From: Microbulbifer thermotolerans
GTDB taxonomy: Bacteria; Pseudomonadota; Gammaproteobacteria; Pseudomonadales; Cellvibrionaceae
Assembly (NCBI RefSeq): GCF_900112305.1
Contig: NZ_FOKT01000002.1
Coordinates: 248,001-312,000 of the forward strand
DNA: 64,000 nt
Reading direction: 5' to 3'
Below the pieces are notes generated by a model. That model was not told the origin of the DNA. It searched no databases and saw nothing but the letters and a program-made list of their open reading frames with translations. This document shows positions 10,884 through 49,660 of the stretch, in pieces. The stretch's first letter is position 1, and every line of letters starts with the position of its first letter. Made by a program: the position numbers and the translations under genes.

Positions 10884-10974
10884 TCAATTGCTCTGTCAAC
10901 TTTTGTCGCTTGCTACGGCAACTGGAACCCAGTTTGAATGTTCTCTACCGCAGGCTCGCAAGTACCACTAATTG

Positions 10975-11130
10975 GGAACCACTGATGAATTGAAATAAGC
11001 GTTGCCATTGGTTTCGGGGCGCTAAGACAATAGGGTTACCTCAAATTGGAAATACCCATCCCATCACCTGAGCTTTTCATTTGGCCCCGATGACGTTTAA
11101 CCACCAGATAGTGAATTCCTCAAAGGTTCC
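10975..11130 (-). repeat. Degenerate copy of the 214-bp inverted-repeat element (copy A)
   Basis: The left end GGAACCACTGATGAATT and the right end GTGAATTCCTCAAAGGTTCC are imperfect inverted repeats of each other. The interior matches the reverse complement of the copies at 24862 and 41706, including the blocks GGGGCGCTAAGACAATAGG and CATCACCTGAGCTT. The centre is missing about 55 bases relative to the full copies. The flanks (ATTG/ATAG) are not a matching duplication, so this is an old, decayed copy. Confidence 0.75.
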
Positions 11131-11167
11131 ATAGCCAGGATCAGGAACAATCAGCGCCCGCTATACC

Positions 11168-24861: not shown

Positions 24862-25074
24862 GGAACCTCTGGTTAATTCACTTCCTGACGGTAAAAACTC
24901 TTTGGAGCCAGATAAGAAGCTCAGGTGATAGGCTGGCCATTTCGAAACCGACCGATACAGGAATGTATCCGTCGGAGCTACAGGGAAATACTCGTACGTT
25001 TTCGAAGTGGCCATCCTATTGCCTGAGCGCCCCGGAACCTACCATAGTGTGCGCGCGAATGAATCAGAGGTTCC
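24862..25074 (+). repeat. Inverted-repeat (MITE-like) element, copy B
   Basis: 213-bp non-coding element bounded by inverted repeats GGAACCTCTGGTTAATTC and GAATGAATCAGAGGTTCC, with CTAG directly on both sides (24858-24861 and 25075-25078). Nested inverted repeats continue inward (GAAGCTCAGGTGATAGG with CCTATTGCCTGAGCGC; CCATTTCGAAAC with GTTTTCGAAGTGG), so the whole element can fold into one long hairpin. It shares most of its sequence, in the same orientation, with the copy at 41706. No transposase is encoded. The ends and YTAR-type flanks suggest mobilisation by an IS5-group transposase. It sits directly behind csiV. Confidence 0.88.
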
Positions 25075-25370
25075 CTAGCGCTTGTAGAGCGCCCAATACG
25101 CTGATTCACTCTAGCTCTCCGCACAGGCGAAAGTCTGCCAGCCCATCTCCGCTGGCAGCCCGATAGCCAGAACATCCCGCAACCACGCCAGTGCTTTCAC
25201 GGTTAGCAGAAGTATCACAATTCTCTTGCTTTTATCGATGATGACTGAAAAATACCTTGACCAATAGGTAGTGTGGCAGCAAACAACAGGCACGGGGTTC
25301 GAATAACTTACCCAAGCTGTTGCACTCCGGTATACTAAAAACTTCCGAGTGATAGAAGCATCCCATACAG

Positions 25371-25538
25371 GGAACCTTTGATTAATTCGCAGGGTCGCTC
25401 AGGCAAAGAGATCGTCATTTCGAAAACACAAGACTCCACCGGATAAGGTCATGTATCCGACAGTTTTGAAAACAGCCGAGTGATCGCATCTGCGCCTGGA
25501 GTCTCTGTCGTGCCAGTTAGCGATTTCATCACGGGTTC
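25371..25538 (+). repeat. Diverged copy of the inverted-repeat element (copy D)
   Basis: The left end GGAACCTTTGATTAATTCGC and a right end that reads AGAACCCGTGATGAAATCGC in reverse complement are imperfect inverted repeats. Inside, CATTTCGAAAAC and ATGTATCCGACAG correspond to blocks of the intact copies. It is shorter (168 bp) and heavily mutated; the flanks ACAG and CTAG do not match. With copy B it makes 24862-25662 a gene-free, repeat-rich stretch; the other bases there show nothing recognisable. Confidence 0.65.
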
Positions 25539-25662
25539 TCTAGGATAAAATGCTGTCACTCCTGAGGTTTAACCTTCCCAACCGCTCGGAGCAAAAGCCA
25601 GTTCATCGAGCGCTATGGCAGACACAGAGTTATAAAACCCCTAACAACTAGCCAGTATTTCC

Positions 25663-39723: not shown

Positions 39724-41700
39724 ATGTCGATTGGCGCAAAGGGATTCGCGTTTTTCATTACGCTACTACTGACAGCCGTTCCCACTTCGGGACTGGCCGG
39801 TGAAGCGGAAGATGCCGTCGCCCAGAGGGAAAAGCTGCGCGCCGCTCGCATGGCTATAGCCCGCGGTGACCTAAACCGCTTGAAGCAGCTCAAAGCGGAT
39901 TTGAACGGCCACCCTCTTCTTCCCTACATAGACTACTGGGCGCTTAGCAAGGAGCTCTCCCGGCTCCCGTACGACAAAATCGACAAATTTCTCGCCGACA
40001 ACGAAAACACCGCCATTGGTGACTGGTTACGCGTCCGGGTACTGCGCGAGCTCGGCAGCCGGGCGCGCTTCCGCGCCTACCTGAAGTACTATCGGCCAGA
40101 AAAGATAACCCGGGCTTCGCTGCGCTGTTACTACGCTGATGCCCTATCCCGCCACGGCGACAAAGCAGTTGCCTACAGGCTGGTAGAAGAACTATGGCTC
40201 GTGGGCAGCTCCCAAGCAGACGAGTGCGATCCCGTATTCCGGCGGTGGATGCAGGACGGAGGCCTCACCCAGGAACTGGCTTGGCAGCGACATCAACTCG
40301 CACTACAGAAGGGCAACCTGGATCTGGCCGCATATATCGCCACCAAAATGACGGGAACCTACGCGAAGCTGGCGGCGCTGATGCGTTCGGTACACAAAAA
40401 TCCAGAGCAACTTCTCGACTATCCGCGCTTCGCCAGTTTCTCGCCCGGCGATTATTCAAGGGAGTACCGCGCCATCGTTGTACACGGTCTTCAACGACTG
40501 GCTCAAAATGACGCCACCAGCGCCGATCAGGCTTGGCAACGCTATCAAGCAAGCTACCTGTTCAGCGATGAAACACAGGAAAGGATGCTCCGATACCTGG
40601 CTCGACAATTCGCACGCCAGGATAACTTCAATGGTCTGTTGCAATTGGTAAAAGAGCGGCAGTTCACCGATGCCAGCTCCATCGAGTGGCTGGCGCGCCA
40701 GTCGTTGCGGGAGCTGGACTGGGAGCAGCTCGCCTTCTGGATCGACCGCATGCCGGAAGAGCAGCAACAGCATGAGCGCTGGCTCTATTGGAAAGCGCGT
40801 GCCTTGGAAGAACTATACGGCCGGGAGCGGGCCAGCGCAGCAGTGCAACTGTACAGGAAAGCCGCGCAAAACCGCAGCTATTACGGATTTTTGGCAGCCG
40901 ATACACTGGGGTTAAATTACAGTTTTATCGACCGCCCGGTTCCCATCAATCCTCAACAAGTCGAAGAGATGGCCGCGCGGCCGGCCATGCGACGGGCACG
41001 GGAGTTACAAGCCATCGGCGAGCTCTATCACGCGCGCAGAGAATGGGACTACGCGACCAGAGATATGTCCCATGGAGAATTGCTCACGGCCAGCAAACTC
41101 GCCAGCTCCTGGGGCTGGTACCACAAGTCGATTCAATCAGTTCTGGCCGCTGACTATCTGGACGATCTGGAGCTGCGCTTTCCCTTGGCGTTTGCCGATA
41201 TAGTCGATGATGTCAGCAAAAGAATCGGGGGCAAAACAGCCCTTGACCCCTACTTTATCTACGCCGTGGCCCGGCAGGAAAGCCACTTCAGCCACGATGC
41301 AAAGTCTCAGGCTGGCGCTTTGGGACTGATGCAACTGCTGCCATCGACAGCACGCGCAACTGCCCGCCGCGCCGGCGTGAAATACCGGCGCAGTTGGGAT
41401 CTTCTCAGCCCCAATACCAATATCGCACTGGGCAGTTTTTATTTGAATACGCTGCTGGACCGCTTTGACAACAACCGCATACTGGCCGCGGCGGCCTACA
41501 ATGCCGGCCCCACGCGAGTGGCCAACTGGCTTAAAGAAACTAAGAACCGCTTGCCTTTCGATGTTTGGATAGAGACGATTCCGTACAGAGAGACCCGCCA
41601 TTACGTGCAAAACGTGCTGGCTTATTCAGTCATCTACGCCTACCGCAGCGGTACCAAGTTGACACTGCTGCGGAAGAACGAAGCAACCAGCAAGCTTTAA
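39724..41700 (+). CDS. slt: Soluble lytic murein transglycosylase
   Basis: Periplasmic enzyme that cleaves peptidoglycan to 1,6-anhydro-muropeptides, the substrates later handled by NagZ. A signal peptide of about 25 residues ends near SGLAGEA. A long superhelical U-domain follows, then the SLT catalytic domain from about 500 with Glu519 in VARQESHFS and the motif GALGLMQLLPSTA. With 658 residues it is the long Slt70 type. A repeat element begins only a few bases after its stop. Confidence 0.95.
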   Translation: MSIGAKGFAFFITLLLTAVPTSGLAGEAEDAVAQREKLRAARMAIARGDLNRLKQLKADLNGHPLLPYIDYWALSKELSRLPYDKIDKFLADNENTAIGDWLRVRVLRELGSRARFRAYLKYYRPEKITRASLRCYYADALSRHGDKAVAYRLVEELWLVGSSQADECDPVFRRWMQDGGLTQELAWQRHQLALQKGNLDLAAYIATKMTGTYAKLAALMRSVHKNPEQLLDYPRFASFSPGDYSREYRAIVVHGLQRLAQNDATSADQAWQRYQASYLFSDETQERMLRYLARQFARQDNFNGLLQLVKERQFTDASSIEWLARQSLRELDWEQLAFWIDRMPEEQQQHERWLYWKARALEELYGRERASAAVQLYRKAAQNRSYYGFLAADTLGLNYSFIDRPVPINPQQVEEMAARPAMRRARELQAIGELYHARREWDYATRDMSHGELLTASKLASSWGWYHKSIQSVLAADYLDDLELRFPLAFADIVDDVSKRIGGKTALDPYFIYAVARQESHFSHDAKSQAGALGLMQLLPSTARATARRAGVKYRRSWDLLSPNTNIALGSFYLNTLLDRFDNNRILAAAAYNAGPTRVANWLKETKNRLPFDVWIETIPYRETRHYVQNVLAYSVIYAYRSGTKLTLLRKNEATSKL

Positions 41701-41705
41701 TTTAA

Positions 41706-41919
41706 GGAACCCTCTGATTAAATCACTTTCTGGTGGCAGAGGCTCTTCGCGGGTGGATGTGAAGCTCAGGTGATAGGACGGACATTTCGAAACCGAAGGG
41801 TACAGGGATGTATCCTTCGGAGCTACAGGGAAGTACTCGTGCGTTTTCGAAATATCCGTCCTATTACCTGAGCGCCCCAGAAGCTATCATAGTGTTCTCG
41901 CGAATTAATCAGAGGTTCC
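41706..41919 (+). repeat. Best-preserved inverted-repeat (MITE-like) element, copy C
   Basis: 214-bp non-coding element with ends GGAACCCTCTGATTAAATC and GAATTAATCAGAGGTTCC, flanked on both sides by TTAA (41702-41705, 41920-41923). Inner inverted repeats (GAAGCTCAGGTGATAGG with CCTATTACCTGAGCGC; ACATTTCGAAAC with GTTTTCGAAATAT; CCGAAGGGTACA with TGTATCCTTCGG) make the whole unit one long hairpin. It matches copy B along its length in the same orientation. No open frame or transposase is present. It fills the gap between slt and the convergent glutaredoxin-like gene. Confidence 0.9.
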
Positions 41920-41928
41920 TTAAATAGC

Positions 41929-48991: not shown

Positions 48992-49104
48992 AATTTGTTA
49001 CTCACTCGCATCGGAACGCGGAAACCGCTGGTGCAGTAGTTTTGCAATGCAAGTTTCCAAGCGCTCATTACAAAGTCAAACATTATCAGCCGTGCCAGTA
49101 CGAT

Positions 49105-49295
49105 GGAATCTCTGATCGATGTATCAGGGCACTGTCATTGGTTTCGGGCGCTCAGGCAACGGGATAGTTTTTTCGCAAACGCACGGGTACGTCCCTACCG
49201 GTCCGACGGTTTCGAAATGTCTATTCCACCATCCGGATCTCTCATCTGACCTTGAAGTCTCTTTACCTGCGGCCAGCGAAGCAATCAGAGAATCC
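49105..49295 (-). repeat. Decayed copy of the inverted-repeat element (copy E)
   Basis: Left end GGAATCTCTGATCGAT and right end GCAATCAGAGAATCC are imperfect inverted repeats of the family type. Inside, GTTTCGGGCGCTCAGGCAA and ACGGTTTCGAAATG match blocks of the reverse-complemented intact copies. Length 191 bp. Flanks CGAT and CTAT do not match. It lies in the gap between rlmL and rmf. Confidence 0.7.
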
Positions 49296-49660
49296 CTATA
49301 CAGTTTTCTTCTATAAGACATAACGCTAAGACAAAAGCGTTTGTTCACAGGCCGATCACTTTTTGTTCTACTGAAAACGGCACATATTGCCGCTCGCTCT
49401 AGGAGCCAGCGGCTCCAAGAGCGAAAACGCGGCTCAGTGAATGAAACAGTGTGCCCCTATAAGCGCTTTTTTTGATTTTCCACCAGCGACAATAGGCTTG
49501 CAGCACCGCAAGTAGAAACAGAAGGCGCTGTACCGACCGGACCAAAAGGTTGACTACGCTTACAAGTGCAGATGTACAAAAACTTTAAAAAGGCGCCCTG
49601 TGACGCTTCGACTGTGCACAGCCTGTCTACTGCGCACCCGAGTATAGAGGTACTGCAACA
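49296..49660. other. Non-coding region upstream of rmf with a strong hairpin
   Basis: With copy E this completes a 669-base gap between rlmL and rmf. At 49396-49422, GCTCT-a-GGAGCC and GGCTCC-a-AGAGC form an 11-bp stem with one mismatch around AGC. It has no T run on either side, so it is not an obvious intrinsic terminator. No coding sequence is convincing here, and I could not place the rmf promoter. Confidence 0.5.

Follow-up and report, generated by a model that had tools for sequence, protein, structure and literature searches.

A probable IS5-mobilised MITE of Microbulbifer thermotolerans carrying an older RNA-type element with predicted CsrA-binding hairpins

Background

A 64,000-nucleotide stretch of the Microbulbifer thermotolerans genome (contig NZ_FOKT01000002.1, positions 248,001 to 312,000; hereafter the window, in whose coordinates features are given) holds at 41706-41919 a 214-bp palindromic element enclosed by TTAA. 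An initial annotation, made from the letters alone, had read it as similar to a miniature inverted-repeat transposable element (MITE) moved by a transposase of the insertion sequence (IS) type IS5. The locus raises two questions, namely whether the element is indeed such a MITE and what the structured interior that it carries might be. MITEs are usually viewed as passive leftovers of IS elements, and the kind to which this one is assigned is already known; what is new is a MITE carrying an RNA module of the CsrA type. The inner inverted repeats, the nature of which was overlooked at first, belong to an older structured element that is spread across the class and has hairpin tips of the CsrA type; the MITE carries this element, here termed X, along. 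Judging by sequence and structure, we consider it probable that an IS5-mobilised MITE has captured and spread a module that binds CsrA. In the open-licence literature, outside which most subscription papers lie, we found no work linking CsrA with a bacterial MITE or similar dispersed repeats, and nothing on MITEs in Microbulbifer.

Results

Copies and target-site duplications

The window element is described on the + strand, which is the strand with the GGA tips; it begins with GGAACC and ends with GGTTCC. Its left terminal inverted repeat, GGAACC(C)TCTGATTAA (41706-41721, +), has one extra C, the modal length of the other copies being 213 bp, and its right terminal inverted repeat (41905-41919, -) reads TTAATCAGAGGTTCC on the + strand. 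TTAA stands at 41702-41705 and again at 41920-41923, as a target-site duplication of the form YTAR. Inside the ends lie nested inverted repeats with arms at 41764-41795 and 41842-41873 (91% complementarity). The folding z-score is -10.4, with none of 200 shuffled sequences equally stable, and there is no open reading frame (ORF) of at least 80 aa within the element. The extent, duplication, nested repeats and lack of coding capacity reported initially are thus all confirmed, and the second good copy, at 24862-25074 (+, 213 bp, with X at 24916-25031), has CTAG on both sides, as stated there.

A search of the genome places these two copies in a large family. The 15-bp MITE end, with at most two mismatches, occurs 398 times in the whole genome (197 + 201; control pattern, 1 + 0), which corresponds to about 200 copies. 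A search with the element gave 255 candidates, and all 40 that were scored are near-full-length (87-100%), the window copy among them. Likewise, two stretches of 400 kb plus the window, 864 kb in all, contain 42 places with X, which extrapolates to about 190 per genome. The counts of ends and copies are far above chance, and by extrapolation the MITE numbers about 200 copies in this genome. An exact 17-mer of the MITE had 34 single matches in genome contigs, scattered among organisms and close to chance by arithmetic, with the own genome possibly excluded from that set; a 20-mer of the end had no match in viral contigs.

Forty-four copies were turned to one strand, and in the 43 that could be scored the 4-bp duplication is perfect in 28, agrees at three positions in 8, at two in 6 and at none in 1; at least three positions agree in 36 of the 43. 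Two table entries are better read directly: the window copy, mis-scored owing to its extra C, has TTAA on both sides by eye, and L021, wrongly set in the table, has CTCA on both sides in an earlier alignment. The duplications were proposed to fit YTAR, and this holds for most copies (TTAA, TTAG, CTAA, CTAG) but not for all, as ATAA, ATAG, CTAT and TTTG also occur.

An IS5-family partner and empty sites

Twelve complete IS5-family copies of about 1.14-1.17 kb were found in seven congeners (G036, G039, G044, G031, G035, G021 and G029), and their ends differ from the MITE end at 0-4 of 15 positions; one end of L069 is identical to it (GGAACCTCTGATTAA ttcac). All 24 flanks of these copies are YTAR, with the same 4 bp on both sides in 7 of the 12. 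The 316-aa transposase of one copy matches the IS5 family model NF033581 at 356 bits (cut-off 140), as well as PF01609 and PF05598. In the own genome (G000), IS5-type pieces with similar ends lie at the ends of contigs C12, C28, C30 and C21 and, frameshifted, in C15, which is as expected for repeats in a draft assembly. One frameshifted IS5-type transposase directly adjoins a MITE copy, the two forming a degenerate composite (L029/L031/L063, G000:C15:375677-379622).

At the window site, about 235 bp separate the two aligned gene pieces in the own genome. The same gap measures 11 bp in G029, 12 in G020, 18 in G039, 31 in G042 and 58 in G014, with the gene pieces aligning to nearly the same points. 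In relatives with less of the genes aligned or with a longer gap it measures 44 bp (G021), 112 (G012), 134 (G008), 209 (G013) and 441 (G037), and the longest gaps are 1,349 (G024), 1,858 (G015) and 1,880 bp (G036). Thus, five relatives have a short empty site, and in others the site is longer or altered.

The duplications, the IS5-family elements with matching ends and the empty sites together give strong support to the initial view that the element is, by its sequence features, a non-autonomous MITE of the IS5 type. An IS5-family transposase would move it in trans, recognizing ends like GGAACCTCTGATTAA and duplicating a 4-bp YTAR target.

The interior as a separate, older element

A genus-wide search with the whole MITE found no complete MITE in any congener. 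It matched 13 other genomes, 12 of them in the inner part; the match in G039 is confined to the end and lies at the IS copy of that genome. The matches in G012 and G013 consist of the 116-nt element X between other flanks. With a model built on 19 copies (17 from G012/G013 and two from the window), X was recognized in 45 of the 48 genus genomes; within the order 49 of 145 genomes contain it and, at E values of at most 1e-5, 45 of 274 within the class, the own genome being counted in each total and the samples partly overlapping. Plasmids and phages gave no match to X. Around the 42 own X places both MITE ends are found at 33, one end at 6 and none at 3; MITE ends are absent from 46 of 47 places in G007 and from 72 of 74 other loci. 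We conclude that X is a separate element, older than the MITE and spread across Gammaproteobacteria.

Terminal inverted repeats around stand-alone X, scored at 13 or more, were found at none of 46 places in G007 (mismatched-flank control, 16 of 365), at one locus, L170, among 74 others (control, 8 of 582) and at 4 of 17 in G012/G013 (control, 3 of 129); on visual inspection, those of G012/G013 are terminator-like arms or larger repeats. In this test the control from the own genome carries no information, the ends being common to all copies. Stand-alone X often occurs in close divergent pairs resembling a giant BIME (bacterial interspersed mosaic element): 11 of 13 G007 pairs within 400 bp are of this kind, with gaps of 27-94 (loci L232-L251), and such pairs also occur at L124, L126, L131, L174 and L175.

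Dispersed intergenic palindromes in divergent pairs recall the repetitive extragenic palindromes (REP) that make up BIMEs. X could accordingly be a REP-like repeat moved by a REP-associated tyrosine transposase (RAYT, a Y1 transposase) and have nothing to do with CsrA; some match to PF01797 exists in 45 of the 48 genus genomes. We judge such an origin very unlikely, because G012 and G013 hold X without a PF01797 match. G012, G013 and G004, all lacking the match, have 52, 59 and 19 scored X places respectively, and the tips of X fit the consensus for CsrA.

Fold and strand of X

In the window the captured element occupies 41761-41876 (+) and folds into a Y shape, in which a 26-bp covarying basal stem leads to a three-way junction bearing two hairpins, of 11 bp and 3 bp. 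Model R1, which derives from A1 and hence contains the window copy itself, scores it at 122.8 bits. An alignment made without structure (MAFFT) has 126 cells in which both sides of a pair have changed, compared with 33.8 on shuffling (126 reached in 0 of 500) and 10 to 27 for slid structures, and at 26 of the 40 pairs one or more sequences have both sides changed, although kinship among copies inflates such counts. In an order-wide set of 75 rows, left from 100 matches after removal of 25 lower-scoring overlaps and fitted to the model, which leans toward structure, there are 103 G-U as against 20 A-C cells. Dropping two often-G-U consensus pairs and one junction pair, a post hoc choice, leaves 42 as against 7. 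This asymmetry indicates the GGA-loop strand as the functional RNA; X thus appears to be a structured RNA-type element, its structure supported by covariation and its strand by the G-U/A-C asymmetry.

The same palindrome could also act as DNA, that is, as a cruciform serving a recombinase or a nucleoid protein and kept by selection or by arm-to-arm correction. A nearly perfect stem that varies individually between copies would agree with this, as would the mostly divergent close pairs (11 of 13 in G007), which are like those of BIME-like palindromes. However, a one-strand excess of G-U over A-C mismatches is not predicted by constraint at the DNA level, and the loops remain A(N)GGA as the stems drift; hence, we regard a role as DNA as improbable.

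Hairpin tips of the CsrA type

The CsrA consensus obtained by systematic evolution of ligands by exponential enrichment (SELEX) is RUACARGGAUGU, in which the GGA mostly lies within a loop of six bases that the AC/GU pairs close (as given in the available text of PMC7652899). In the window copy, tip 1 (41793-41820, +) has the loop AGGGAT with a C-G closing pair and tip 2 (41824-41835, +; TACAGGGAAGTA) has the loop AGGGAA, both of them ANGGAN hexaloops. The loops read A(N)GGA in 75 of 75 sequences at tip 1 and in 74 of 75 at tip 2, while the tip stems drift with compensation. A scan of 464 kb of own DNA for two strict ANGGAN hairpins separated by 15-35 nt gave 8 cases, every one of them in X, compared with about one in Markov sequence of equal size. 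This count was made with stems of 3 bp in place of one with stems of at least 4 bp, which gave no dual site because the stem of tip 2 has 3 bp. There is one csrA match in the own genome (G000:C13:373005). Both tips of X therefore fit the SELEX site, with two hexaloop GGA sites per RNA, and would be predicted to bind the protein.

A further link comes from the Rfam family TwoAYGGAY (RF01731), which is predicted to bind CsrA (available text of PMC4333381). X of G086 matches it at 45.6 bits (gathering threshold 43) and a second copy at 41.3, with the two hairpins of X aligning to the two of the family; among 26 distinct X loci given to Rfam, TwoAYGGAY was returned for L174 alone. We take X to resemble TwoAYGGAY RNA in shape and presumed working, a likeness that stops short of family membership for the own X. 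Matches of X to Ysr224 and to microRNA families lie below gathering and were set aside as chance hairpin matches.

X was found in none of 20 stretches around csrA genes (19 from five congeners, one own). Eleven congeners (G009, G021, G029, G030, G031, G035, G039, G041, G043, G044 and G045) have 5-27 csrA matches, and those read in G029, G030, G035, G043 and G045 belong mostly to a divergent MLILKRRTGENLRIG-type subfamily. These eleven hold 0-36 X, with at most 12 in 10 of them, and genomes with at most two csrA matches hold 14 to at least 77 in 32 of 37 cases; the 37 include six of the 48 genomes in which csrA was not matched, possibly a miss of the search. The numbers of csrA and X are inversely related (Mann-Whitney p=1e-4, Spearman -0.44, neither corrected for kinship), which hints at co-evolution, clade effects being possible. 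In Alcanivorax two CsrA-related small RNAs (sRNAs) are described, which are not repeats of the X kind (available text of PMC9788540).

Other carriers of X

At least one mobile element that is not related to the window MITE also carries X. Ten X copies of G436 each lie in an element of 158 bp whose ends read GTAATTATTCAGC...GCTGAATAGTTAC and which is flanked by duplications of 8 bp, perfect in 7 of 10 and agreeing at 7 of 8 positions in 3 of 10; these are ten of eleven listed places, with 13 scored, and the element had no match in plasmids. We regard this as firmly one carrier independent of the window MITE. In G223, two copies of a 207-bp X-bearing element have ends TAAATACGTGTTCCGAAT and fit a TA duplication, making it, from two copies only, a probable second independent carrier. 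In G255 (L323-L328), X lies in a unit of 222-225 bp, the long inverted repeat of which, TCAATGAGGCCAGCAGCCTG, is itself inside other repeats; we do not take the 28-bp inverted repeat around X there for a capture, since the sequences outside it are repetitive as well.

A wider proposition may be framed on these carriers: X would represent class-wide mobile or mobilised CsrA-binding hairpins, captured repeatedly by unrelated MITEs (of IS5 type; with 8-bp duplications in G436; with a probable TA target in G223), and the present MITE would be a transposable CsrA sponge of about 200 dual sites. We put this forward tentatively, rating it somewhat below an even chance.

Discussion

Is X maintained within the MITE?

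Divergence was measured from the family consensus of 44 copies. Among the copies located solely through their ends, divergence is lower in X than in the arms in 15 of 15 (8.3% as against 24.5%, p=6e-5); the arms of the window copy, of which the left diverges fast, lie at 41722-41760 (+) and 41877-41904 (+). Over all 44 copies the values are 4.85% for X and 12.2% for the arms, a comparison biased by the 14 copies found through X. GGA is kept in both tips in 37 of 44 copies and in one tip in 6.

These data bear on a plain IS5-type MITE that caught X by accident, so that X would be neutral filler without present function and its structure would only reflect its origin. Such filler would be expected to show the random strand relative to genes, the absence of promoter and terminator signatures from the window copy, the loss of at least one MITE end at 9 of 42 own X places and the shorter end-bounded derivatives (83-175 bp) that are seen. 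It is not readily reconciled with the lower divergence of X in every end-defined copy, with the retention of GGA in both tips in most copies, or with a second, unrelated MITE carrying the same module (G436), and we consider it unlikely.

The reading that we favor, an IS5-mobilised MITE that has captured and spread a predicted CsrA-binding module, itself has to be weighed against several observations. Within the MITE copies the excess of G-U is marginal (47 as against 29 cells, p=0.05), and in 30 copies ranked by BLAST with the whole element the gap between X and arms is small (3.1% and 5.0%, p=0.049). GGA is missing from at least one tip in 7 of 44 MITE copies; the fuller motif ACA(N)GGANGT is present in 40 of 75 sequences at tip 1 and 59 of 75 at tip 2, and the strict dual-hairpin rule is passed by 8 of 16 X calls. 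The window X had no match to TwoAYGGAY at gathering or up to E=10, and the cut-off of that family is reached in none of the 48 genus genomes, with sub-cut-off matches in 5. In ORF-based counts, own X lies on the strand of the upstream gene at 18 of 36 intergenic places (36 of the 42 could be classed), and this absence of bias counts against a role in cis. Neither a promoter-like nor a terminator-like site was found at the window MITE, which means that transcription of X is assumed. Counted likewise, X in G007 is on the upstream-gene strand at 23 of 37 places and lies between divergent genes at 4 of 37, as against 36 of 163 X-free gaps.

How the favored reading might work

If an IS5-mobilised MITE has spread such a module, its interior would be a captured copy of the older RNA-type element X. 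Transcribed on the GGA strand, X would form the three-way junction and present two hairpins with ANGGAN hexaloops about 23 nt apart, a kind of site that is bound by a CsrA/RsmA dimer. Amplification of the MITE would have seeded about 200 (extrapolated), mostly intergenic, dual sites of the CsrA type, and in read-through transcripts X might serve as a distributed decoy for CsrA or give it a local handle on the host mRNA. A MITE would then be spreading a structured RNA module apparently made for CsrA, and, if CsrA binds X, transposition would rewire this global post-transcriptional regulator or titrate it. The old prediction that RNAs of the TwoAYGGAY type bind CsrA also becomes directly testable, with about 200 natural copies in one genome.

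Other family members and neighbors

The window MITE directly follows the stop codon of ORF 39724-41700, a gene that reads from its sequence as lytic transglycosylase-like. The window further holds a decayed MITE copy at 49101-49303 (-), with an X relic at 49147-49242 (-, 31.4 bits), and decayed relics at 25366-25547 and at 10969-11139, the latter with degenerate ends at 10975 and 11130. The end-bounded shorter derivatives occur at G000:C21 and in the window and suggest internal deletion within the family. In G000:C14 (L252, 16377-16834), three X form a tandem series with a 171-bp period, apparently in one MITE-bounded array.

Comparison with known systems

X shares with TwoAYGGAY RNA (RF01731; Weinberg et al. 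2010, PMC2864571) two A-N-GGA-N hairpin loops on a basal stem; it differs in being a high-copy dispersed repeat and the cargo of a MITE, neither of which is mentioned in the available parts of PMC2864571 and PMC4333381. Like the sRNAs CsrB/C and RsmX/Y/Z, X has hairpin loops that present GGA and is proposed to titrate CsrA, but it offers two sites per copy, has no promoter seen at the window copy and lies at about 200 scattered places instead of one or a few sRNA genes. REP/BIME and NEMIS/Correia-type repeats are, like X, intergenic palindromes that end up in transcripts, and the divergent pairs of X in congeners are similar to them. X differs from these repeats in its abundance in two genomes without a RAYT match, in its CsrA-type tips and in having IS5 ends as its vehicle here. 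With IS5-family MITEs the window element has in common its short length, lack of coding capacity, IS5-like ends, 4-bp YTAR duplications, many copies and short empty sites; it differs from them in that its interior appears to be a captured, older, structured RNA-type element and not the deletion remnant of an IS.
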